Assembly (NCBI GenBank): GCA_902777275.1
Contig: CACYTI010000028.1
Location: forward strand, 1-62,816
Origin: an uncultured Ruminococcus sp.
GTDB lineage: Bacteria > Bacillota > Clostridia > Oscillospirales > Acutalibacteraceae
Length of the DNA stretch: 62,816 nucleotides
Reading direction: 5' to 3'
The position numbers and the translations under genes were made by a program. The first letter of the stretch is position 1. Each line of letters begins with the position of its first letter. The notes beneath the pieces were generated by a model, which was not told the DNA's origin, ran no database searches, and saw nothing but the letters and a program-made list of their open reading frames with translations. Below are positions 3,731 to 21,275 of the stretch, piece after piece.

Positions 3731-3831
3731 CTCAACGAATAGAGAATAGAGAATAGTTAATAACAGATGTACCCTTAGGGCGTTTCCGGTGTATTATTCG
3801 TTATTATCTATTCACTATTCTTTATTCATTA
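3731..3831. repeat. Heptamer-built dyad repeat, copy A
   Basis: A 101-bp unit beginning CTCAACGAATAG. Three heptamers of the GAATAGA/T type form the left arm. A central block with CCCTTAGGGCGTTT is followed by a right arm of complementary CTATTC heptamers. It is nearly identical to 4385-4492 but has one heptamer fewer. It lies between the recombinase stop and the next small gene; the arms could form a long hairpin. Confidence 0.9.
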
Positions 3832-3916: not shown

Positions 3917-4288
3917 ATGCTGTTTACTGTTGTCGGAATATGTTTATCAATTTGTGGAATGGTTTCAGGTATTGTCATGGGCATAACATTTGACAACTTC
4001 GGCTTTTGTCTATTGACTTGGATTTCTACATTTCTTTATGTGCTAATCTATTTTGGATTCGGTATTGTCATAAAGAACCAAAAAATGATTATTGATAAAG
4101 TTGATTCGATTGAGAATAAGATAAATCAAAAACATAATACCGTTCCTTTATATGTTGCACAAAGCAAAACAGATAGTAAAGATGCGACACAAAAAAACGA
4201 TATTGCTCACAAGTGGAGATGTCCGAATTGCAGTAATATGATTTCAGATCCAGTTTGTCCTTATTGCGGGAAAAACAGCAATGAATAA
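3917..4288 (+). CDS. Small membrane protein with C-terminal zinc ribbon
   Basis: The 123-residue product has two N-terminal hydrophobic helices (about residues 3-24 and 33-56), a charged linker, and a C-terminal CPNCSNMISDPVCPYC motif typical of a zinc ribbon. The ribbon would lie in the cytoplasm if the two helices form a hairpin. AAAAGGAGAGG at 3901-3911 supports the ATG. The gene is AT-rich compared with the chromosome further on. It sits between the two copies of the dyad repeat and is followed by a tail sequence that recurs after the next gene, suggesting accessory cargo. Function unknown. Confidence 0.7.
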   Translation: MLFTVVGICLSICGMVSGIVMGITFDNFGFCLLTWISTFLYVLIYFGFGIVIKNQKMIIDKVDSIENKINQKHNTVPLYVAQSKTDSKDATQKNDIAHKWRCPNCSNMISDPVCPYCGKNSNE

Positions 4289-4384: not shown

Positions 4385-4492
4385 CTCAACGAATAGTGAA
4401 TAGAGAATAGAGAATAGTGTATAACAGATGAACCCTTAGGGCGTTTCTGGTGTATTATTCGTTATTCTCTATTCACTATTCTTTATTCATTA
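4385..4492. repeat. Heptamer-built dyad repeat, copy B
   Basis: A 108-bp unit aligning along its whole length to 3731-3831. It has four left-arm heptamers (GAATAGT, GAATAGA, GAATAGA, GAATAGT) against three in copy A, which accounts exactly for the 7-bp length difference. It directly precedes the ribosome binding site of the next small gene. Confidence 0.9.
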
Positions 4493-4512
4493 AATAGGAG
4501 AATTTGATTATT

Positions 4513-10527: not shown

Positions 10528-11187
10528 ATGTTGGCAGAAGCATTGGCGGCTTCCGTATCTGTCGGTTTAGGCTGCGGCACCTGCTGCGGCTCGTCGGCTT
10601 CGTCATTTTTGGCGGTCTATATCCTCACCGAGGGAGGCGGCTTCAAATCGTCTCTAAAGCACGTCGGCGGTTATTTCTTCGGAAAAATCCTCGCTGTCTG
10701 TTCCATCACCGCGCTATGCTCTGTGATCGGCAAGGTGTTCATTGACGAAAACGGTTATATCGGCAGCTTCAATCTGCATCACGCCGTTTCGTGGGTCATG
10801 CTCGCTTCGGCGCTGTTTTTGATCTGGCGGTGGTTCAGAAGCCGCAGGCAGACATGCGAAAAATGCGGCGGCAAATGCCATTCCGATAACAAATCGCGGC
10901 TGATACCGTCCTTTACAGTCGGGCTTGCCTACGGCGCTTATCCCTGCGCGCCGCTGCTGATGGTGGCAGGCTACGCGATCACGCTGTCCTTGCCCGGCGC
11001 GGTTCTTCTCGGCGCGGTATTTGCGCTCGCAAGCTCGCTCTCGCCGATGCTCTTGATATTCGGGCTCTCGGGCATCCTCAGCGGAAAGATGCGCAAACAG
11101 CTCGGCAAAGCAATGCCGTGGATCCGGTTAGGCGTATATATTTTGTTTTTGATTCTTGCGGTGGTTTCTTTGTTCTGGTATAATTGA
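10528..11187 (+). CDS. DsbD/TauE-like membrane protein with Cys motifs
   Basis: The 219-residue product has about six membrane segments. A CGTCCGSS motif lies in the first, a cytosolic or external loop carries TCEKCGGKCHSDN (four Cys, one His), and a GAYPCAP motif follows. It resembles the UreH/DsbD_2 transmembrane group, which moves reducing equivalents or handles metals. ATG 10528 is preferred because GAAAGGGG lies upstream; the open frame to 10450 runs inside the activase. It starts 5 nt after the activase stop and closes the operon. A role in supplying thiols or metal to the Cys-rich partner proteins is an inference. Confidence 0.65.
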   Translation: MLAEALAASVSVGLGCGTCCGSSASSFLAVYILTEGGGFKSSLKHVGGYFFGKILAVCSITALCSVIGKVFIDENGYIGSFNLHHAVSWVMLASALFLIWRWFRSRRQTCEKCGGKCHSDNKSRLIPSFTVGLAYGAYPCAPLLMVAGYAITLSLPGAVLLGAVFALASSLSPMLLIFGLSGILSGKMRKQLGKAMPWIRLGVYILFLILAVVSLFWYN

Positions 11188-11194
11188 ATTAAGT

Positions 11195-11222
11195 GGTTAG
11201 TGATTAGTGGTTAGTGGTTAGC
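11195..11222. repeat. Left heptamer array, 4 units
   Basis: GGTTAGT, GATTAGT, GGTTAGT, GGTTAGC in tandem. Confidence 0.9.
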
Positions 11223-11246
11223 TTTCAGGTGAGAGGTGAGTACTGG

Positions 11247-11615
11247 ATGGTAAAAAGTTATAAAGATTTATTGGTATGGCAAAAATCAATGTCTTTAGTG
11301 TTTGAGGTTTATCGCATAATAAAGAATTTGCCAAAGGAAGAGCTATACGCTTTATCTTCTCAAATTCGACGTTCGGCTGTTTCCATTCCTTCCAATATAG
11401 CAGAGGGGCAACAAAGAAACTCTACAAAAGAGTTTATCAATTTTCTCTCAATAGCTAAAGGCTCTAATGCTGAATTGCAAACGCAACTGATGATTTGTGT
11501 AGGATTGAATTATCTTTCAAAAGAGGAAACAGAAACCGCAATGCAGCTGTCAAATGAAGTAGGAAAAATGCTAAATGCTTTAATAGACAAACTAAGGCAA
11601 ATTACTAACCACTAA
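11247..11615 (+). CDS. Four-helix-bundle protein (S23 / 23S rRNA-IVS family)
   Basis: The 122-residue protein matches the family that includes 23S rRNA intervening-sequence proteins and the Avd accessory protein of diversity-generating retroelements. Visible hallmarks are YKDLLVWQKS at the start, LSSQIRRSAVSIPSNIAEG in helix 2, and EFINFLSIAKGSNAELQTQL in helix 3. Members form pentameric barrels with basic surfaces that can bind nucleic acid; no biochemical role is settled for most. No rRNA or reverse transcriptase is nearby. ATG 11247 has GAGAGGTGAG upstream. The final residues QITNH are encoded by the first heptamers of the right array, so array and gene are physically fused. It is AT-richer than its neighbours. 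Confidence 0.9.
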   Translation: MVKSYKDLLVWQKSMSLVFEVYRIIKNLPKEELYALSSQIRRSAVSIPSNIAEGQQRNSTKEFINFLSIAKGSNAELQTQLMICVGLNYLSKEETETAMQLSNEVGKMLNALIDKLRQITNH

Positions 11616-11687
11616 CCACCAGCCACTAACCACTAACCACTAACCACTAACCACTAACCACTAACCACCAGCCACTAACCACTAAAA
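11604..11687. repeat. Right heptamer array, 12 units
   Basis: Units 1-2, 4-9 and 11 are ACTAACC, units 3 and 10 are ACCAGCC, and unit 12 is degenerate ACTAAAA. The variant recurs exactly seven units (49 bp) later, suggesting block duplication as well as single-unit slippage. Confidence 0.9.
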
Positions 11688-11703: not shown

Positions 11704-12378
11704 ATGAGATTACTCTTTGCCGAGGATGACCGCGACATTTCAAAAGCGGTCAAAACGCTTTTAGAGCGTTCGGGTTATTCGGTCGACGTCGTTTTCAATG
11801 GGCAGGACGCGATAGATTATATTGAATCGGGCGAGTATGACGGCGTGATCCTTGACTGGATGATGCCCAAGCGCAGCGGCATCGAGGTACTGACGCAAAT
11901 GCGCGCTAAGGGCTTCTCTGCGCCCGTGCTCATACTCACCGCGCGCGATTCTGTTGATGACAGAGTAAAGGGACTTGACACCGGCGCGGATGATTATCTC
12001 CCCAAGCCTTTTGCCGCCTCGGAGCTCCTTGCGCGTATCCGCGCCATGCTCAGGCGCAAGGAGGATTACAAGCATGACGTGATCCGATTTGCCGATATCG
12101 AGCTCGACAAATCCGCTATGTCCATTACCTGCAACGGAAAAAGCGTCCGGCTGAACAACAAGGCTTTTCAGCTGATGGAAATGCTCGTCGAACACCCGGG
12201 AGCGGTTTTGAGCATCGATCAGATCATGGAACGCATTTGGGGCTGGGACAGCGACAGTGAAGTAAACGTTGTTTGGGTGAACATCTCATTCCTGCGCAAA
12301 AAGCTGACCGAGCTCGGCGCACACGCCAAGATCAAAGCCGTCCGCGGCGTCGGCTATTCACTGGAGAATACGTTATGA
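11704..12378 (+). CDS. OmpR/PhoB-family response regulator
   Basis: The 224-residue protein has a receiver domain with acidic pair E7-D8-D9, phosphoacceptor D51 in VILDWMMP, T/S in LILTAR and K in DDYLPKPF. A winged-helix DNA-binding domain (about 128-222, VWVNISFLRKKL and IKAVRGVGY) follows. Phosphorylation by the partner kinase should control its promoter binding. CCGGAGGTGATAA precedes the ATG directly after the right heptamer array, so the array ends close to its leader. It overlaps the kinase gene by 4 nt. Target genes are unknown. Confidence 0.95.
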   Translation: MRLLFAEDDRDISKAVKTLLERSGYSVDVVFNGQDAIDYIESGEYDGVILDWMMPKRSGIEVLTQMRAKGFSAPVLILTARDSVDDRVKGLDTGADDYLPKPFAASELLARIRAMLRRKEDYKHDVIRFADIELDKSAMSITCNGKSVRLNNKAFQLMEMLVEHPGAVLSIDQIMERIWGWDSDSEVNVVWVNISFLRKKLTELGAHAKIKAVRGVGYSLENTL

Positions 12379-13682: not shown

Positions 13683-16600
13683 TTGAACTACCTGCTGAAA
13701 ATAGATATCAGCACTAACCTTGAGCTGGTTTTCCAGCGCGGCGGCGAGGAGGATCCCTCAAAGACTGTGTTCAAGCATTTTACGGATTTTGCGGACAATT
13801 CAAGTATTCCGGGCGGATATGTTAATCCATGGTATGTTGAGGATCCGAGTAATACAAGCAGCACGAACTACCACTCCAATATTGTGGTTGTTGACATCAA
13901 AGATAAAATCGCTCCCAAATATATGAATGGTTGGTTTATGTATATGAACAACCTGAAAAGCGAGAATTTTAAGAATATTGCAAACTTAGACACGACCGAG
14001 TGTATAAAAATGAATATGCTGTTCAATTATGACAGCGGTTTTACCTCACTTGATCTTAGTGCATGGAGTTTTCCTGCGTTAACGGAAGCGTCTTCTGTGT
14101 TTTCTCGCTGCAGTAATCTTACCAGCTTGGATATTTCATCGTGGAGTATGCCGAAATGCACTTACATCCCCGGTATGTTCAGTGATTGCACGAAGCTTGA
14201 AACCATTGATATTTCAGGCTTTAACATGAATAGTCCCAGATATTTCAGCGGTTTATTCTCAAATTGTAAGAGCCTGAAAAATGTAAATCTGGGCACACTT
14301 GTATTCCCCAATGAATCACAGCTGTCTACGGTTTTCAAGAACTGTTCCAGCCTTGAGGAAGTGGATTTGAGCGGTTGGACTGTAAAAAAGCCGGGTATCT
14401 TTAAGGAAATGTTCTCAGGATGTACTTCTTTGAAGAGCGTTGATTTCGGTCCTGCCGATCACTGGGGAAATACTCCGAACTATTGGAGCTATAACGGTAA
14501 TCTCGAACAAGCTTATGAGTCTATGTTCGAAAACTGTACATCACTCGAAAGTCTTAACCTTACCTGCGTTCAGGGCGCTTTGATTTGTTCCTCAATGTTC
14601 AAGGGCTGTACAAGTCTAAAAGAAGTTGATCTCAGTTATGCGGGAAAGGGCAGAGAAAGCAGAAAAGGTTATACTCCGGGCGCTCCGGTCGATCCTAATC
14701 TAACAGGAAAAGCTAATATATTCGAGGACTGCAGCGAGCTTGCTTGGGTAAAGCTCAGCGCGGAAGGCTGGCCTTCAAGCGGCAACGCCGGAACGAGTAT
14801 GCCGTCTAAAAACGCATGGCGTAAGATCGACGAGCCCAACAAGGATCTACGTTTGACCAACGACGAGCTGTTTTTGAATTTTCAGGCAGAATACGCCGGA
14901 ACATGGATAGCCGATTCCTTTATCACTTTCCGCGGAAACGGCGGTACGCCGAATTTTCAAACTGTGGACGGCAATAAGGGTGTGGAGCTGACCTTTGACG
15001 AAAATGCGCTTGTCGTAACGCGCAACGGATATGATTTTGCCGGCTGGTGGACAGAGACAACAGGCGGCACACAGATCCATTCACCCCTGATACCCGAGCA
15101 GTGGAGCTATTACGCACACTGGAACGAACATCATTACAAGCTGAAATTAAACGGCAACGGCGGTACAAACGCCGATGATGAAAGCGAGTATTTAGCAGCG
15201 GATAATCTCGGCTATACCGAGTTTTACGAGTTGAGCAATACGCTGTTTACACGCAACGGCTATGTGCTGTCAAGCTGGAACACGCGCCCCAACGGTATGG
15301 GAACGGACTTTTCCGCCAATGACTCAGTCAATAAACTGACTGAGGCTGACGGCGCCGAAGTAACGCTTTACGCACAATGGCATAAACCTGATGTTATTAT
15401 CAAATTTGATTCGCACGGCGGTTCGGCGGTGGGTGATAAGCACTATACGTTGGTAACGGGACAAACCGTGCTCTACGGCGATTTGAGCGATGCTTTCAGA
15501 GCTCCCGACGAAGCTTCTCCCGCGGGCTATACGTTCTTGGGTTGGTTTACTGAGGAGAACGGCGGCGATAAGATCACAGCTGAGTCCGAGGTAAGCGTTT
15601 CCCGGACGCTGCACGCTCATTGGCAAAAGAACCTGAGCGTCACCTTTGACGCGAACAGCGGCTGCTTTGATAGCGATCCGGCGAAAACGATTACTACCAA
15701 GGTTAGCAAATACGGCCACAAGCTCGGTGTGCTTCCTACTCCCGAAAACAACAATGCAACCTTTAAAGGCTGGTTTACCGCGCAGACAGGCGGTACACAG
15801 ATCACTTCAAATACAGTTGTCACAGCGGATGCAACATACTATGCACAGTGGGGGTATCAGCCCGAATTTGAGTCAAACGGCGGCATCTTTACCTCGTATC
15901 CGAGCGGCGGTTATCCCCTTCAGAATGATCCGGCATATGTTATCACGGAGCTTCCGGTGGTCACAAAAGACAACAGCAGATTTTTATACTGGAAATTCGG
16001 CGAGCGCAATCTCAATGAGGAGCTGAGTGCTTCATCGGGAGATCCCAAAAGCATTACGATCGATCTGTCCGAAGGCAACTCCATTGAAGCGGTTTGGGAA
16101 GATAAACCGCAGTACACCGTCACCTTTGATCCCAACGGCGGAACAGGTTCCGCTGTCTCGATCAAGGTATATGAGGGCGGAAAAGCTGTCGGCGAACCAA
16201 CCTTTCAAAAAGACGGCTATGCGTTTGGCGGATGGTTTACCAACCCCGACGGAACAGGTGAGGAATTTGACCCGTCCGCTGCTGTCACAGCAACCAAAAC
16301 CTATTACGCAAAATGGATACAGAAGGATTGCACGCTGACCTTTAATCCGTCAGGCGGTACGATGTACGACAGCGCGACAGTCAAGATCGTCAACGGCGAA
16401 ACGATCCCGGAGCTTCCCGGTGTAAATCGCGCAGGCTACGAATTTGCAGGCTGGTGGACCGAACCGGATGGCACCGGAACACACCTGACCACGGAAACTG
16501 TTATCAACGGAGATCAGACATATTACGCCAAATGGATTCCGCAGACCCTTTCGGCGGATATATATAATTACTCGATACGGTGGACGCAGGATTCCGACAG

Positions 16601-19600
16601 CAACGTCACCAATACAGGAGATGATCTGATCCTCCATCCGACGCTCGGCAGTGATATCAGCGCCGTGCTTCTGCTCAGCTTCGGAATAGACAGTCATTAT
16701 AAGGATAAAACCATTCCTGCCGGACAGGTTCAAATCACTATCCCGAAAAGTATGTTCCATGAAAACGGTGTTGCTCTCGACAGAAATAATATTGATTTGA
16801 TCAGCACAGATACCTATACGTATACCGAGGTCGGGGACAACTATGTTTTCACGAATACGGTTGAATTAAATGAAGGAAACAGAATAGAGTTTACTTATAC
16901 CTGCAAGGTGTCTCCCAGAAAGGTAAAAGGCGGCTATACGGACGAAAACGGCTACTATCAGGGAGATTATTACCAAACAAGCTTTACGCCGAGTATTGTG
17001 GTCAATAACAGCGAAAATCCTCTCAGCTACAGCAGAACGCTCGGGCTGGAAACCCACACGAAGGTACTGACGACGGTTAGCAAGGAACGGTCAAGCATTG
17101 CGCTTGAATGGAATGACAGCTGGGGAAACAAGCCCTCCGATGCGGACGACTATTTCTATGTCGTCTGGCATCTCAACGCAAAAGGCTCCGACGCTTCCAG
17201 TCAGAAATACAATTTATCGTGGAGCGAGGAAACGGCGCATGACGGCACAGTCGTTTACAGCTCACCGACGCTCGGCACCAAATCGGGAATACAGTCTTAC
17301 GGAACGTTTAATTCCACTGTTGTTACCAAGCATCTCAGAAAAGAAGTGGAAGGCGAGCTTACCACTGTACACAATGAAGCGATACTTAATGTAGAGTGGG
17401 CTTCCGGCTATGTAGAGCATAAAAGAGTCTCAAATTCAACAAGGGTATATATTCCTGCAGATGATAGCGGCTCGCGTCCGTTTGTAAAAGCGGTTCCTAA
17501 TTATACCCAAATGGATTCCCACTATAAAAACGGCGGTCAGGAGCTGATTCTGTCAGGCGACGAGGTGGTGTTGCCCTACAACATCAATTATGCCGAGCAC
17601 AAAAATGACAGCGCTCCGGTTTGGAACACGGTCACAGAAAAGTATACCGCCAAACGCCGCGACTATATTTTGACAGACGGTATAAAGGGCGACGCGGTGA
17701 TTTCCACGGCTTCGGGAAACAGCAGCTACAACTGGGGACACGCTTCCGAAAAATCTCTCAACGACAGTGATTACTATTTTGACTCACTCAACATTATTTT
17801 GACTGAGTACGACGCTGTTTGTCTCGGCACTGTTTGGTCTGACCCGTATGTGCACAGTTTATATTCCGACTACGACGATGTGGAAATTTGGGTCAGAACA
17901 GAAGGAAGCGACAGCTTTTCTCTCTTCAAAACGATTTCCGAGACTTCGGAAATCAGTGTGAACCTTCCTGAAAAAACAGTCGGATATATGGTCAAGCACA
18001 GCTCCGAGTTCTATACAACCTCTTTCAGTGTCAGCACAAATCTGCACCTGAAATCCTCCAACAGGGTGCTCTCGCTCGTTAAGGACGACGTCAGCGCAGG
18101 CGCGGCAACACTTGTCAAAAATAAGGCAGCGATCGAAAGAACCATGAACGGGGAGACCACCACGCTCCATACAAACAACGAAAGCAACGGCTGGATCAGC
18201 GCGTATGAGCTAAATATCGGTTCCAGTACCCTGTATGCGGCAAAGAACTGCTCCAATAACGACAGCAGCGTTGATATCAATCCGTCGACCTCTACCGAGA
18301 CTGTTCCGGTCGTTATCTCCGGCTGGGGCTATAACAATTCAGGCAACCTGAAGCTGATGAAGTCGGGCGTTTTCTATGATTTGCTTCCGATCGAGTTTTC
18401 AGTTGACAAGAACACGGTATTTGTCAGACCGAGAACGGACAACAGAACGGGACGGAACACCGATGCGGACAACTATAATTCGCAGTATAAAAAGACAGAT
18501 AAATTTTCATCGGGTTATTATTCTGTTGAGTTTACAGATAACTGGATGGGTACCGGCAGAACTTTGATGACTGTCCGGGTTACCGTACCCGACAGCGTAA
18601 AAGCGACCGGCTTAGATGTTTACTATAAGATGAAAACCTCGTTTGTCAACCTCTGCACCAACGGTCTTAACCAATCCAACTATGTCGCGTTTGAGGATAC
18701 GACAGAAGGACAGGGCGTTCCGAACAACAGAAGCGGTCTGCTCAGCCTGATCGACAGCAAATTCCGTCCGGCGTATGAAACCGTTGACGGCAAGTTTACC
18801 GCCTATGCGCAGGATACGACAAACTGCATTCTTCCCCTTACTTATGAGCACGGTATCCGCTCTGTTATCAAAACCGAAGGCGTATACAAAACAAGAAACG
18901 AAACTGTCGGATTAAACAGCGACTACGCTTACTTTGTTTCGTATGCCGGAAGCTCGGGAGCCCACACAAGAGACCTTGTGTTCTTTGATGTGCTCGAGAA
19001 CAGATTTGGCGGTCCGGAGTCCGAGTGGTACGGTAAGTTTGAGAACGTCGATGTTTCGGGAGTAAGAGGTATCGAAAGCTCAACGGCGTCCGACGGAACC
19101 TGTGCACCCGTTGTCTATTACGCAACAAAGCCAAGATCTGCTTATACCCAGACGGATTTCGACCTGTCAAGGACTGATATATGGACAACCGAAATGCCTG
19201 CCGATAAATCAACGGTGACGGCTATCGCGGTAGACTGCTCAAAAACTAATCTTGGTAAAGACTTTGTTCTGGATCCGAGAAGTCAGGTTAGCATCAATAT
19301 TAATATGAAATCTCCCGAATCCGCTCCGAGAAATGACATAGTGGCTTATAATGAATCCTATATCAAGGCAAAGAATCAGGAGCTTGAGCATGGTATCGAG
19401 GAGATGACGCGCACCAGCGTAATGCTTCACTTTACACCGCCGGAATTAAGCAAATCGGCATTCCCCGAGCCGGGAACGCTGGATGAGAACAATAAGGTGG
19501 TGAACGGAGAGGTCGCAAAGGGAAGCACCATCAACTATTATCTCAACATCAGCAATCCCGATGATACTTTGACCGTTTACGATATCGCGGTGGAGGATAC

Positions 19601-21275
19601 CTTGCAGGCACAACTCGCTCTGAATAATCCCGTAACCGTAAGCATGGGTAGCGGTGAATCCATTTCAATTGACACCAGCCAGAGGATCAGCAGCTACAGC
19701 ATCACCGAGTCGGGCGGTCAGGTGAAGTTTGTCGCCAGAATCGTATCTCTCGCCCCGGGAGAAAGCCTGACTATTTCGATCCCGGCTACTGTCAATGCGG
19801 AGAAAGACACCGTGATAACAAACACATCTACCATTACGGGTTATAACGGTATCGTGTTTGAGCCAAAGGATTACATTGTAAGCGACGCCACCTATCATGT
19901 CGTAACCGATATCAAGGTGAAAATCAAAAAGGTCAATTCCAAGGGAGAAGGATTGCCCGGAGCAACGCTTCAGATACTCAATGAGGATAAATCACAGGTT
20001 GTTGAAGATAACTTCACTTCCACTGACGATGTGATGACCTTTAACATTCAGCCCGGAGATTATTATCTGCATGAGGTTAGCACACCGTCTGATGTTTATA
20101 AAACCGCAGCGGATATACCGTTTACCATTGACATCGAGGGAATCTGTCACGTTGACGGCCAAATGGTCAATTACGTTGAAATGATTGACCAGCCAAAGTA
20201 TAAAATCATCTTCCATGAAAACAAGCCCAACGGTACCACTGAAGAAAAGCAAAAAATATTCAGGATTTATGAACCGTCAGACTTAACCGAGAACAAGATC
20301 GTTCATTTCTATGATATTCCCGAATGGGCGGGTGACGAGTATGTTTTCGCGGGATGGTACAGCAATGATAAATATGATTACCTTTCAAGAATAACAAACG
20401 ACAGCACCACAGCAAAAATTCCGCTTGACTTTGAGGGTAAAACCTTTACCCAAGCCCGTTCAGGCAGTGATCCTGATTATCATTTATACGCCAAGTGGAT
20501 CGAAGTCGGTACGGTGGCTCAGGATGAGGCTGATACCAACGTATATAACGGTACATACCGCGGCTTTGGACTTGTCGGCGTTCAGATCCGTCCCCAGCCG
20601 GGTAAGGTTTTCAATGAAGAAACGGGTGAGTGGGAAGATGCAACGATGTACGATCCCAATATCCGCGATGAGGGCATATCCGGCGAAGATTACAACGATT
20701 CAGCCAAGCCTACTCCCGAGGGAATGCGGTTTGTCACCTCGTTGAGCGAGACGCTTCTCAGCAGTATAAACGGTATCGGCAAAATTGAAGCCGCGACGAA
20801 CGCAGCCAAAACCTTTGGTGTAGAGTACGGATATGTTGTCGGTACAGAGGCGAACATCAACATCTTCACCAATCACTATCAGGTAAACGATCCTGCCAAT
20901 TATCTGCTTCAATACAAGGGCGAAAACGTCAACGGCAAGAATACGACCGGTACTGTCAGAGAGGTCGATAAGGATTTCCGATTTATCACAAATGTTGATT
21001 GTACCTCAAAAGAGGGCTACGGAACCAAAAACAACAACACGGGTGTCGTCAAGTGGGATCACCGTAACTTTGATGCTTACAGACTATACACACTTGTTGT
21101 GACTTACGAAGGCGATTCGGCTTCCTACAAAGGCGATAAAATCGCCGCGAGATCCTATATCCGCTACTACGATGCCAACGGCAAGCTCAGAGTGTTCTAT
21201 AACATTTACAAAAAATCCATGTACGGCGGCTGTATGTGCAGCTTCAACCAAGCATACGCAGCGATGTACGTATAA
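13683..21275 (+). CDS. Giant BspA/Listeria-repeat surface protein without signal peptide
   Basis: The 2530-residue frame has BspA-type (DUF285) leucine-rich repeats at about 55-340 (MFSDCTKLETIDISG type). Seven consecutive Listeria-Bacteroides (InlB B) repeats lie at about 410-955, each ending YYAKW-like. A long beta-rich region spans about 955-1900. A DUF11-like stretch at about 1920-2060, a SpaA-like prealbumin domain at about 2075-2155, an eighth Listeria repeat and a C-terminal domain without LPxTG follow. Such proteins are exported adhesins. Here the frame is closed by the histidine kinase stop only four codons above the TTG start, and the first residues NYLLKIDISTNLELVFQ are not a signal peptide. 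The 5' end therefore looks lost or the junction is artificial. Confidence 0.8.
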   Translation: MNYLLKIDISTNLELVFQRGGEEDPSKTVFKHFTDFADNSSIPGGYVNPWYVEDPSNTSSTNYHSNIVVVDIKDKIAPKYMNGWFMYMNNLKSENFKNIANLDTTECIKMNMLFNYDSGFTSLDLSAWSFPALTEASSVFSRCSNLTSLDISSWSMPKCTYIPGMFSDCTKLETIDISGFNMNSPRYFSGLFSNCKSLKNVNLGTLVFPNESQLSTVFKNCSSLEEVDLSGWTVKKPGIFKEMFSGCTSLKSVDFGPADHWGNTPNYWSYNGNLEQAYESMFENCTSLESLNLTCVQGALICSSMFKGCTSLKEVDLSYAGKGRESRKGYTPGAPVDPNLTGKANIFEDCSELAWVKLSAEGWPSSGNAGTSMPSKNAWRKIDEPNKDLRLTNDELFLNFQAEYAGTWIADSFITFRGNGGTPNFQTVDGNKGVELTFDENALVVTRNGYDFAGWWTETTGGTQIHSPLIPEQWSYYAHWNEHHYKLKLNGNGGTNADDESEYLAADNLGYTEFYELSNTLFTRNGYVLSSWNTRPNGMGTDFSANDSVNKLTEADGAEVTLYAQWHKPDVIIKFDSHGGSAVGDKHYTLVTGQTVLYGDLSDAFRAPDEASPAGYTFLGWFTEENGGDKITAESEVSVSRTLHAHWQKNLSVTFDANSGCFDSDPAKTITTKVSKYGHKLGVLPTPENNNATFKGWFTAQTGGTQITSNTVVTADATYYAQWGYQPEFESNGGIFTSYPSGGYPLQNDPAYVITELPVVTKDNSRFLYWKFGERNLNEELSASSGDPKSITIDLSEGNSIEAVWEDKPQYTVTFDPNGGTGSAVSIKVYEGGKAVGEPTFQKDGYAFGGWFTNPDGTGEEFDPSAAVTATKTYYAKWIQKDCTLTFNPSGGTMYDSATVKIVNGETIPELPGVNRAGYEFAGWWTEPDGTGTHLTTETVINGDQTYYAKWIPQTLSADIYNYSIRWTQDSDSNVTNTGDDLILHPTLGSDISAVLLLSFGIDSHYKDKTIPAGQVQITIPKSMFHENGVALDRNNIDLISTDTYTYTEVGDNYVFTNTVELNEGNRIEFTYTCKVSPRKVKGGYTDENGYYQGDYYQTSFTPSIVVNNSENPLSYSRTLGLETHTKVLTTVSKERSSIALEWNDSWGNKPSDADDYFYVVWHLNAKGSDASSQKYNLSWSEETAHDGTVVYSSPTLGTKSGIQSYGTFNSTVVTKHLRKEVEGELTTVHNEAILNVEWASGYVEHKRVSNSTRVYIPADDSGSRPFVKAVPNYTQMDSHYKNGGQELILSGDEVVLPYNINYAEHKNDSAPVWNTVTEKYTAKRRDYILTDGIKGDAVISTASGNSSYNWGHASEKSLNDSDYYFDSLNIILTEYDAVCLGTVWSDPYVHSLYSDYDDVEIWVRTEGSDSFSLFKTISETSEISVNLPEKTVGYMVKHSSEFYTTSFSVSTNLHLKSSNRVLSLVKDDVSAGAATLVKNKAAIERTMNGETTTLHTNNESNGWISAYELNIGSSTLYAAKNCSNNDSSVDINPSTSTETVPVVISGWGYNNSGNLKLMKSGVFYDLLPIEFSVDKNTVFVRPRTDNRTGRNTDADNYNSQYKKTDKFSSGYYSVEFTDNWMGTGRTLMTVRVTVPDSVKATGLDVYYKMKTSFVNLCTNGLNQSNYVAFEDTTEGQGVPNNRSGLLSLIDSKFRPAYETVDGKFTAYAQDTTNCILPLTYEHGIRSVIKTEGVYKTRNETVGLNSDYAYFVSYAGSSGAHTRDLVFFDVLENRFGGPESEWYGKFENVDVSGVRGIESSTASDGTCAPVVYYATKPRSAYTQTDFDLSRTDIWTTEMPADKSTVTAIAVDCSKTNLGKDFVLDPRSQVSININMKSPESAPRNDIVAYNESYIKAKNQELEHGIEEMTRTSVMLHFTPPELSKSAFPEPGTLDENNKVVNGEVAKGSTINYYLNISNPDDTLTVYDIAVEDTLQAQLALNNPVTVSMGSGESISIDTSQRISSYSITESGGQVKFVARIVSLAPGESLTISIPATVNAEKDTVITNTSTITGYNGIVFEPKDYIVSDATYHVVTDIKVKIKKVNSKGEGLPGATLQILNEDKSQVVEDNFTSTDDVMTFNIQPGDYYLHEVSTPSDVYKTAADIPFTIDIEGICHVDGQMVNYVEMIDQPKYKIIFHENKPNGTTEEKQKIFRIYEPSDLTENKIVHFYDIPEWAGDEYVFAGWYSNDKYDYLSRITNDSTTAKIPLDFEGKTFTQARSGSDPDYHLYAKWIEVGTVAQDEADTNVYNGTYRGFGLVGVQIRPQPGKVFNEETGEWEDATMYDPNIRDEGISGEDYNDSAKPTPEGMRFVTSLSETLLSSINGIGKIEAATNAAKTFGVEYGYVVGTEANINIFTNHYQVNDPANYLLQYKGENVNGKNTTGTVREVDKDFRFITNVDCTSKEGYGTKNNNTGVVKWDHRNFDAYRLYTLVVTYEGDSASYKGDKIAARSYIRYYDANGKLRVFYNIYKKSMYGGCMCSFNQAYAAMYV

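Follow-up and report, generated by a model that had tools for sequence, protein, structure and literature searches.

The DNA window analysed here, a stretch of 62,816 nucleotides from an uncultured Ruminococcus sp., probably carries a mobile, transposase-free selfish element that consists of one S23 gene between complementary heptamer arms and represents an intergenic form of the intervening sequence (IVS) of 23S rRNA. The inverted heptamer layout is general across several bacterial phyla, where it surrounds most of the S23 genes sampled, and suggests a widespread mobile element hitherto known chiefly from ribosomal RNA genes. This design was not found described in the literature searched: among the matches listed, no title or abstract of an open paper ties S23 genes generally to inverted heptamer arrays, subscription papers and preprints lying outside the scope.

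The S23 gene and its arms in the window

The element is bounded at about 11192-11685, and its arms are inverted heptamers, AGTGGTT on the left and AACCACT on the right (Table 1). The initial annotation had described a lone S23/Avd-like gene bracketed by such arrays, which is borne out by the arrays detected with TRF and by matches of the gene product to PF05635 (1.1e-42, 145 bits with a cut-off of 33.8) and TIGR02436 (5.6e-41). The left array reads AGTGGTT, AGTGATT, AGTGGTT, AGTGGTT and AG. The right array is composed of two ACTAACC units, ACCAGCC, six ACTAACC units, ACCAGCC, ACTAACC and ACTAA, so that the variants lie 49 bp from each other at units 3 and 10, where they had been placed before; the last codons of the gene (T-N-H-stop) lie inside this array, also as annotated. 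The 30-nt left arm is 97% complementary to the right array, giving the element the complementary termini of an S23-type IVS. S23 is the sole ORF of at least 60 aa between the arms, and no transposase gene is present inside the element. In the 2.59-Mb genome of the window, all 12 matches to three GGTTAGT units (20 nt, with up to 3 mismatches) fall within this element, and the reversed control pattern has 0 matches. In a sister species (L018/L173) the left array is identical, and the right array is 61 bp as against 82 bp in the window (21 bp, or three units, shorter). No variant is present there at unit 3, and the position of unit 10 is occupied by a single related one, ACTAGCC. The shorter array with its single variant fits unit slippage or block duplication, as had been proposed for the right array. 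The two-component genes are followed downstream by an ORF of 2530 aa (window 13683-21275) that has both Listeria-Bacteroides repeats and leucine-rich repeats of the BspA type.

Table 1. Positions of the element, its neighbours and two gene-less hairpins in the window
Feature	Position	Strand	Remarks
Left (5') arm	11192..11221	+	4.3 heptamers AGTGGTT; TRF period 7, score 53
Leader	11222..11246	+	Shine-Dalgarno-like GAGGTGAG (assigned by eye in the sequence) ahead of ATG 11247
S23 / four-helix-bundle gene, 122 aa	11247..11615	+	PF05635, TIGR02436; bAvd above cut-off
Right (3') arm	11604..11685	+	11.7 heptamers ACTAACC, two ACCAGCC variants; TRF period 7, score 136
Upstream host gene, DsbD_2-like	10528..11187	+	Stops 4 nt before left arm; left border of empty site
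Downstream host gene, response regulator	11704..12378	+	Right border of empty site
Gene-less heptamer hairpin (GAATAGA / TCTATTC)	3737..3831	.	TRF; possible non-autonomous relative
Second copy of GAATAGA hairpin, 95% identical	4386..4494	.	TRF

At E <= 0.001 the Pfam hits of the S23 protein are PF05635 and bAvd only, with no Y1/HUH transposase; it passes the Pfam cut-off for bAvd (43.2 vs 40 bits) and misses the NCBIfam equivalog cut-off for DivGenRetAVD (44.4 vs 80 bits). In the structures of two relatives, 2rld and 2gsc, a single sequence is present in five chains, and the Xanthomonas structure is termed a homopentamer in the available text of PMC4990558. The S23 gene is under purifying selection, with a dN/dS of 0.065 against L018, 0.014 against L015 at saturated synonymous sites, and 0.012-0.168 across 11 pairs, some with common members; thirteen pairs had been named, of which one is missing, L111/L119 has almost no differences and L001/L015 is saturated at synonymous sites. 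The same genome has a second S23 gene (L002), bracketed by inverted heptamers that belong to a different unit: TTGACAG/TTGACAA in one flank, TTGTCCA in the opposite flank. A tblastn search with the window protein against 50,697 phage records gave no hit at E 1e-3.

Heptamer arms around S23 genes of other bacteria

S23 was found in 42 of 60 genomes of the genus, and 31 loci were taken from 30 of them, one from each and two from the genome of the window. TRF detected period-7 arrays at these loci, the unit of which varies between loci; where the flanks were readable (n=27), an array lies to the left of 25 genes and to the right of 23. In a set extended to the phylum and to other phyla, 167 S23 hits were reduced to 156 without repeats, to 134 of full length with 300-bp flanks and to 130 with 800-bp flanks. 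Period-7 arrays lie to the left of 87 of these 130 genes, to the right of 92 and on both sides of 73, as compared with 2 left and 5 right in distal windows and 0 and 0 in dinucleotide shuffles, so that the predicted link of S23 homologues to heptamer arrays beyond chance was upheld. The other periods from 4 to 13 were found 0-4 times, and period 14, a harmonic, 59 times on the left and 66 on the right. The two flanks of a locus are complementary (score of at least 16) at 96/130 genes, compared with 1/130 for cross-locus pairs, 0/130 for distal windows and 0/130 for shuffled sequences.

The final set was reduced from 211 S23 hits to 183 and then to 159 genes, with some locus sets left out. Here the period is 7 at 118 genes (three of these calls, L247, L249 and L254, have N runs nearby and may be false), 11 at three, 13 at three (apparently 7+6 by eye), 8 at one and 6 at one; the other 33 divide into 15 with complementary arms and 18 with neither array nor arms. 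Complementary arms occur at 127/159 genes (genus, 22/27; phylum, 35/51; genome contigs, 61/72; plasmids, 9/9). Among control ORFs of at least 120 aa, taken from these loci at a distance from S23, a period-7 array lies to the left of 10/202 and to the right of 10/202, with arrays on both sides in two, one of which is an N run, and complementary arms in 0/202; when other S23 genes of the same loci are included, the ORF control gives arrays at 16 and 19 of 141, arrays on both sides at 9 and complementary arms at 7. Since the 159 genes include orthologues, they were clustered by protein identity: 90 of the 103 clusters at 70% and 20 of the 25 clusters at 50% have arrays or arms. Most of the sampled loci are from unnamed or metagenome-assembled genomes, and one sample, the best 80 of 148 by similarity to the window protein, leans to its subfamily. 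The plasmid loci are from complete records, of which 36 have an S23 hit, 10 were taken and nine are distinct; seven cyanobacterial loci and one flavobacterial locus, the latter with a weak left array, have heptamers, and one from Gemmatirosa has octamers. Octamer arrays are clear in this last locus (L229) and, as read by eye, weak in L116.

In elements with both arms readable, the two arms agree at six or more of seven positions in 75/91 cases, compared with 6% between elements. The similarity of the unit rises from 3.54/7 at a protein identity below 25% to 5.42/7 above 75% (26 pairs), among 6847 pairs of elements without detectable flank homology (blastn and tblastx, both flanks); the trend was also seen with a weaker flank filter and is unchanged under this one. 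Because the unit varies from one locus to another, is alike in the two arms of an element and drifts along with the protein, it travels with the element, and both arms of an S23 element drift together. The best-phased consensus over 108 distinct units is A-R-T-K-N-N-N, whose information content of 3.69 bits is modestly above the null of 3.11 (20 shuffles, maximum 3.24). Among stem pairs of 137 elements, G-C outnumbers C-G by 1271 to 474, the left arm being far richer in G, so that polarity is tied to the S23 gene. Arm mismatches include 177 G.U and 222 A.C, a slight trend opposite to a G.U excess (p 0.03). Selection on the stem at the RNA level was rejected because no G.U excess was found in these mismatches; RNA pairing is thus not visibly selected.

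In a tree of the 159 proteins, the three with period 11 form one clade (100/96), five without arrays form a separate clade (100/98), and heptamers occur on either side of the midpoint split. Other array-less proteins are scattered over the tree, the three with period 13 do not group, and L233, which among the proteins sampled is closest to the 11-period clade, has no array. The tree, built from a short alignment of few columns with bootstrap values that had not settled and many open forks, is only suggestive of a repeat period that would follow the lineage of the S23 protein. In the 11-period clade (L059, L061 and L082), 11-bp near-palindromic repeats of the AACGATAGTTA type replace the heptamers.

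Insertion sites and signs of movement

Between co-directional ORFs, 83 of 119 elements with arrays have the sense orientation and 2 the antisense orientation (p 2e-22); nine others are between opposed ORFs and 25 have a neighbour missing, genes being taken for these counts as ORFs of at least 300 nt and not from annotations. The left arm begins a median of 5 nt after the upstream stop codon, and a median of 19.5 nt separates the right arm from the gene that follows. Selection favouring the expression of a promoterless gene would account for this sense bias, and so would targeting. In contrast to the window copy, which lies between two protein genes, the element is inside 23S rRNA at ten loci of five genomes (L055, L060, L067, L073-L075, L077-L079 and L087) and at two loci of two genomes (L062 and L064) it interrupts an apical loop of RNase P RNA, following model position 136; these 12 of 34 loci scanned with Rfam are not a rate, because the 34 were partly picked for alike copies. 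From sequence context, we take the rRNA site of one genome (G115) to be helix 45 and the RNase P site to be P12. Helix 45 is named as the site of the Coxiella intervening sequence in the available text of PMC4990558. In Anabaena sp. 90, an S23 element separates cas6 from cas4 (L223), and in Nostoc edaphicum another is found between two ribonucleotide reductase genes, in the direction opposite to its neighbours (L222). At L132 4696-5572, a non-S23 ORF is placed between heptamer arrays (CTACCAA / TAGGTAT) just under the complementarity threshold.

The site of the window element was searched in 150 genomes of the genus, 45 of which gave some match; 19 loci were inspected, and both neighbour genes are readable in 17. 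Three are filled (the window, L173 and L174), three have remnants and 11 are without the element. One remnant (L176) consists of the same heptamers in a mini hairpin that has no gene, and two (L179 and L180) have the right array only. The comparison of sisters proposed at the outset thus gave both a right array of different length and species without the element. The close sister L175, whose response regulator is 96% identical, is without the element while the more distant species L174 holds it, so that some absences may be losses. In L183, another of the 11, an unrelated heptamer-less hairpin insert (ATAAGCAACCGAG...CTCGTTGCTTAT) lies between the DsbD_2-like and response regulator genes.

Contig L119 has two elements at a distance of 2.7 kb; they share 84.7% identity over 438 bp, and the matching stretch starts and ends within 3 bp of the array edges. 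The flanks of the L020 and L119 elements do not match. Another contig (L117, 3.9 kb) has two S23 elements with genes 94.7% identical and further repeated blocks on the right side. The six 23S rRNA genes of G115 comprise three with an S23 element, one of them with a shortened ORF, and three with identical gene-less hairpins of 119 nt at the same site; the inner heptamers of hairpins and elements are the same, and the outermost units are changed on both arms with pairing preserved. G240, in which the S23 genes are fragmentary, has two full-length 23S genes; a heptamer hairpin in one of them takes the place of a native 16-nt hairpin in the other. Over 78 bp it is a 77% match to the end of a broken S23 element that lies elsewhere in the 23S rRNA of this genome. 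Comparison of these sequences provides good evidence for the mobility of S23 elements, and supports their movement as a unit bounded by the arrays, on account of the paralogous copies and the G240 hairpin. The initial annotation had suggested a new kind of mobile unit: mobility is supported by the L119 paralogues and the G240 hairpin, whereas novelty is diminished by the precedent of the S23-coding 23S IVS in the available text of PMC4990558.

Target-site duplication was judged on 91 elements together, the empty sites of the window copy being diverged, and none was found beyond the level of shuffled pairs: the longest string shared by the two flanks is 3.27, as against 3.52 in such pairs. Complementary host flanks immediately outside the arms, which would have marked hairpins as targets, were not found either (3.44 vs 3.44).

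The near-identical GAATAGA hairpins are found at four places of the genome, two in the window (Table 1) and two elsewhere (L264 and L265), with a common core, as well as in one partial match; those in the window bracket a small ORF at 3917-4288. They are possible non-autonomous relatives of S23 elements. Heptamer arrays of 13-27 units at L197, L200 and L201 have no S23 gene within the 3-kb locus. Gene-less hairpins and such solo arrays may be deletion products of the S23 element.

Mechanism, alternatives and known systems

Apparently without a promoter of its own, the S23 element sits mostly in sense direction in transcribed units and would owe its expression to the host transcript. A long hairpin can form from its arms, and S23, as a homologue of pentameric proteins, may read the fixed arm spacing in the hairpin form with a loose sequence demand, A-R-T-K-N-N-N; the spacing would be hard to hold at 7 while the sequence changes freely, suggesting that it is set by the protein. 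Fold-back templating and slippage at the DNA level, which are favoured by arms that stay complementary while drifting and show no G.U excess, would keep the arm copies alike. The hairpin form would then enter new sites without target duplication. The absence of target duplication speaks against a classical DNA transposon, as does the lack of a transposase ORF in the window copy; as S23 is the only ORF of at least 60 aa in that copy, the catalytic step would be borrowed unless S23 performs it.

An alternative is that the element is an operon-regulating cassette spread by ordinary recombination, the arms of which form an mRNA hairpin that is cut by RNase III or bound by S23, with S23 regulating the operon. 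The sense orientation of 83:2 and the short gaps to neighbours would suit such a cassette, as would the RNA fold of the window element, 5.6 sd more stable than shuffles, and the excision by RNase III known for the rRNA cases (available text of PMC4990558). We nevertheless regard it as unlikely, given that a close sister and other species are without the element at the window site, that homology of the L119 paralogues ends at the arms, that the element is also inside rRNA and RNase P RNA, and that the arms are without G.U bias. The sense bias would also be accommodated by RNA-mediated mobility, in which the transcript is copied by a resident reverse transcriptase (RT) with the Avd-like S23 as a partner, in the manner of a diversity-generating retroelement (DGR); the bAvd score of the window protein, insertion into RNA hairpin loops (23S rRNA of G240 and RNase P RNA) and the target duplication that was not found are in line with this. 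A hit to RT (PF00078 only) is, however, present in 14/42 genus genomes with S23 and 7/18 without it (Fisher p 0.77), and G046 (99% complete) and G039 (100%, five S23 matches) have no RT hit. This lack of association argues against a resident retro-mechanism, which appears quite improbable.

The S23 gene could also be a passive passenger that merely lies inside heptamer arrays arising as ordinary slippage repeats or as the ends of another transposon. Long arrays do occur without S23 within the 3-kb locus in the genus (L197, L200 and L201), a period-7 array is also seen on a given side of 10/202 control ORFs, and heptameric repeats are over-represented in some bacteria (available text of PMC4692102). 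Such an origin is at odds with the fixed inverted layout, the polarity and the arm matching around S23, with complementary arms at 0/202 control ORFs and with purifying selection on the gene, and we give it little credence. The preferred reading, a mobile one-gene S23 element, may be extended, in a form that we put forward tentatively and hold to be possible rather than probable: S23 would be the spacing-reading factor for maintenance and mobility of transposase-free elements that cross phyla, each lineage would set its period (7, 11 in one clade, rarely 8) with arms drifting in concert, and the rRNA IVS, the RNase P heptamer inserts, the gene-less hairpins and much of the so far unexplained excess of heptamers in bacteria would be footprints of these elements.

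The S23 family, whose sole annotation is 'four helix bundle protein', thereby gains a genomic context and a testable substrate. The S23 rRNA IVS, the heptamer inserts of RNase P RNA and over-represented heptameric repeats may be united as one element, and the nature of rRNA intervening sequences and the role of S23 become directly testable with one protein and one hairpin. If S23 sets the period and upkeep of the arms, this would be a repeat-maintaining and mobility mechanism of which, to our knowledge, there is no counterpart.

In the REPIN/RAYT system, a single protein family is tied to short hairpin repeats that are also found without the gene. Its arms are REP palindromes, whereas the S23 element has long heptamer arms, and the window S23 protein differs in having no hit to a Y1/HUH transposase. 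The STRR heptamers of heterocystous cyanobacteria are also present inside RNase P RNA. S23 elements resemble them in their heptamer arrays and in the insertions into RNase P RNA at L062 and L064, and differ in the S23 gene between the arrays, which makes them a candidate source for such repeats. Heptamer excess has been described in Xanthomonas and Nostoc, and is not tied to S23 in the available text (PMC4692102); TAACTGA repeats are found in Beggiatoaceae in a report whose available text has no occurrence of S23 (PMC4679880). DGR Avd (bAvd, PF22296) is a homologous four-helix bundle, and a resemblance of PF05635 to Avd is noted in the available text of PMC10053308. Unlike DGR Avd, the window S23 gene has no adjacent RT, the only PF00078 hit of the genome being on another contig (C13).

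The closest known system is the S23-type 23S IVS. According to the available text of PMC4990558, the ends of a 428-nt helix-45 IVS in one 23S rRNA are inverted, and its S23 ORF is preceded by two or three heptamers that vary among strains; these heptamers are treated there as a feature of that locus, and the authors judged the S23 protein of the rRNA IVS probably not to be made in vivo. As far as that text describes it, such an IVS shares with the window element an S23/PF05635 ORF, a length of about 0.4-0.5 kb, complementary ends in a long stem and heptamers of variable copy number, which in the IVS are upstream of the ORF. By the same account, the window element differs from it in its intergenic position in an apparent operon, its longer arrays on both sides, its lineage-specific unit and a protein under purifying selection.
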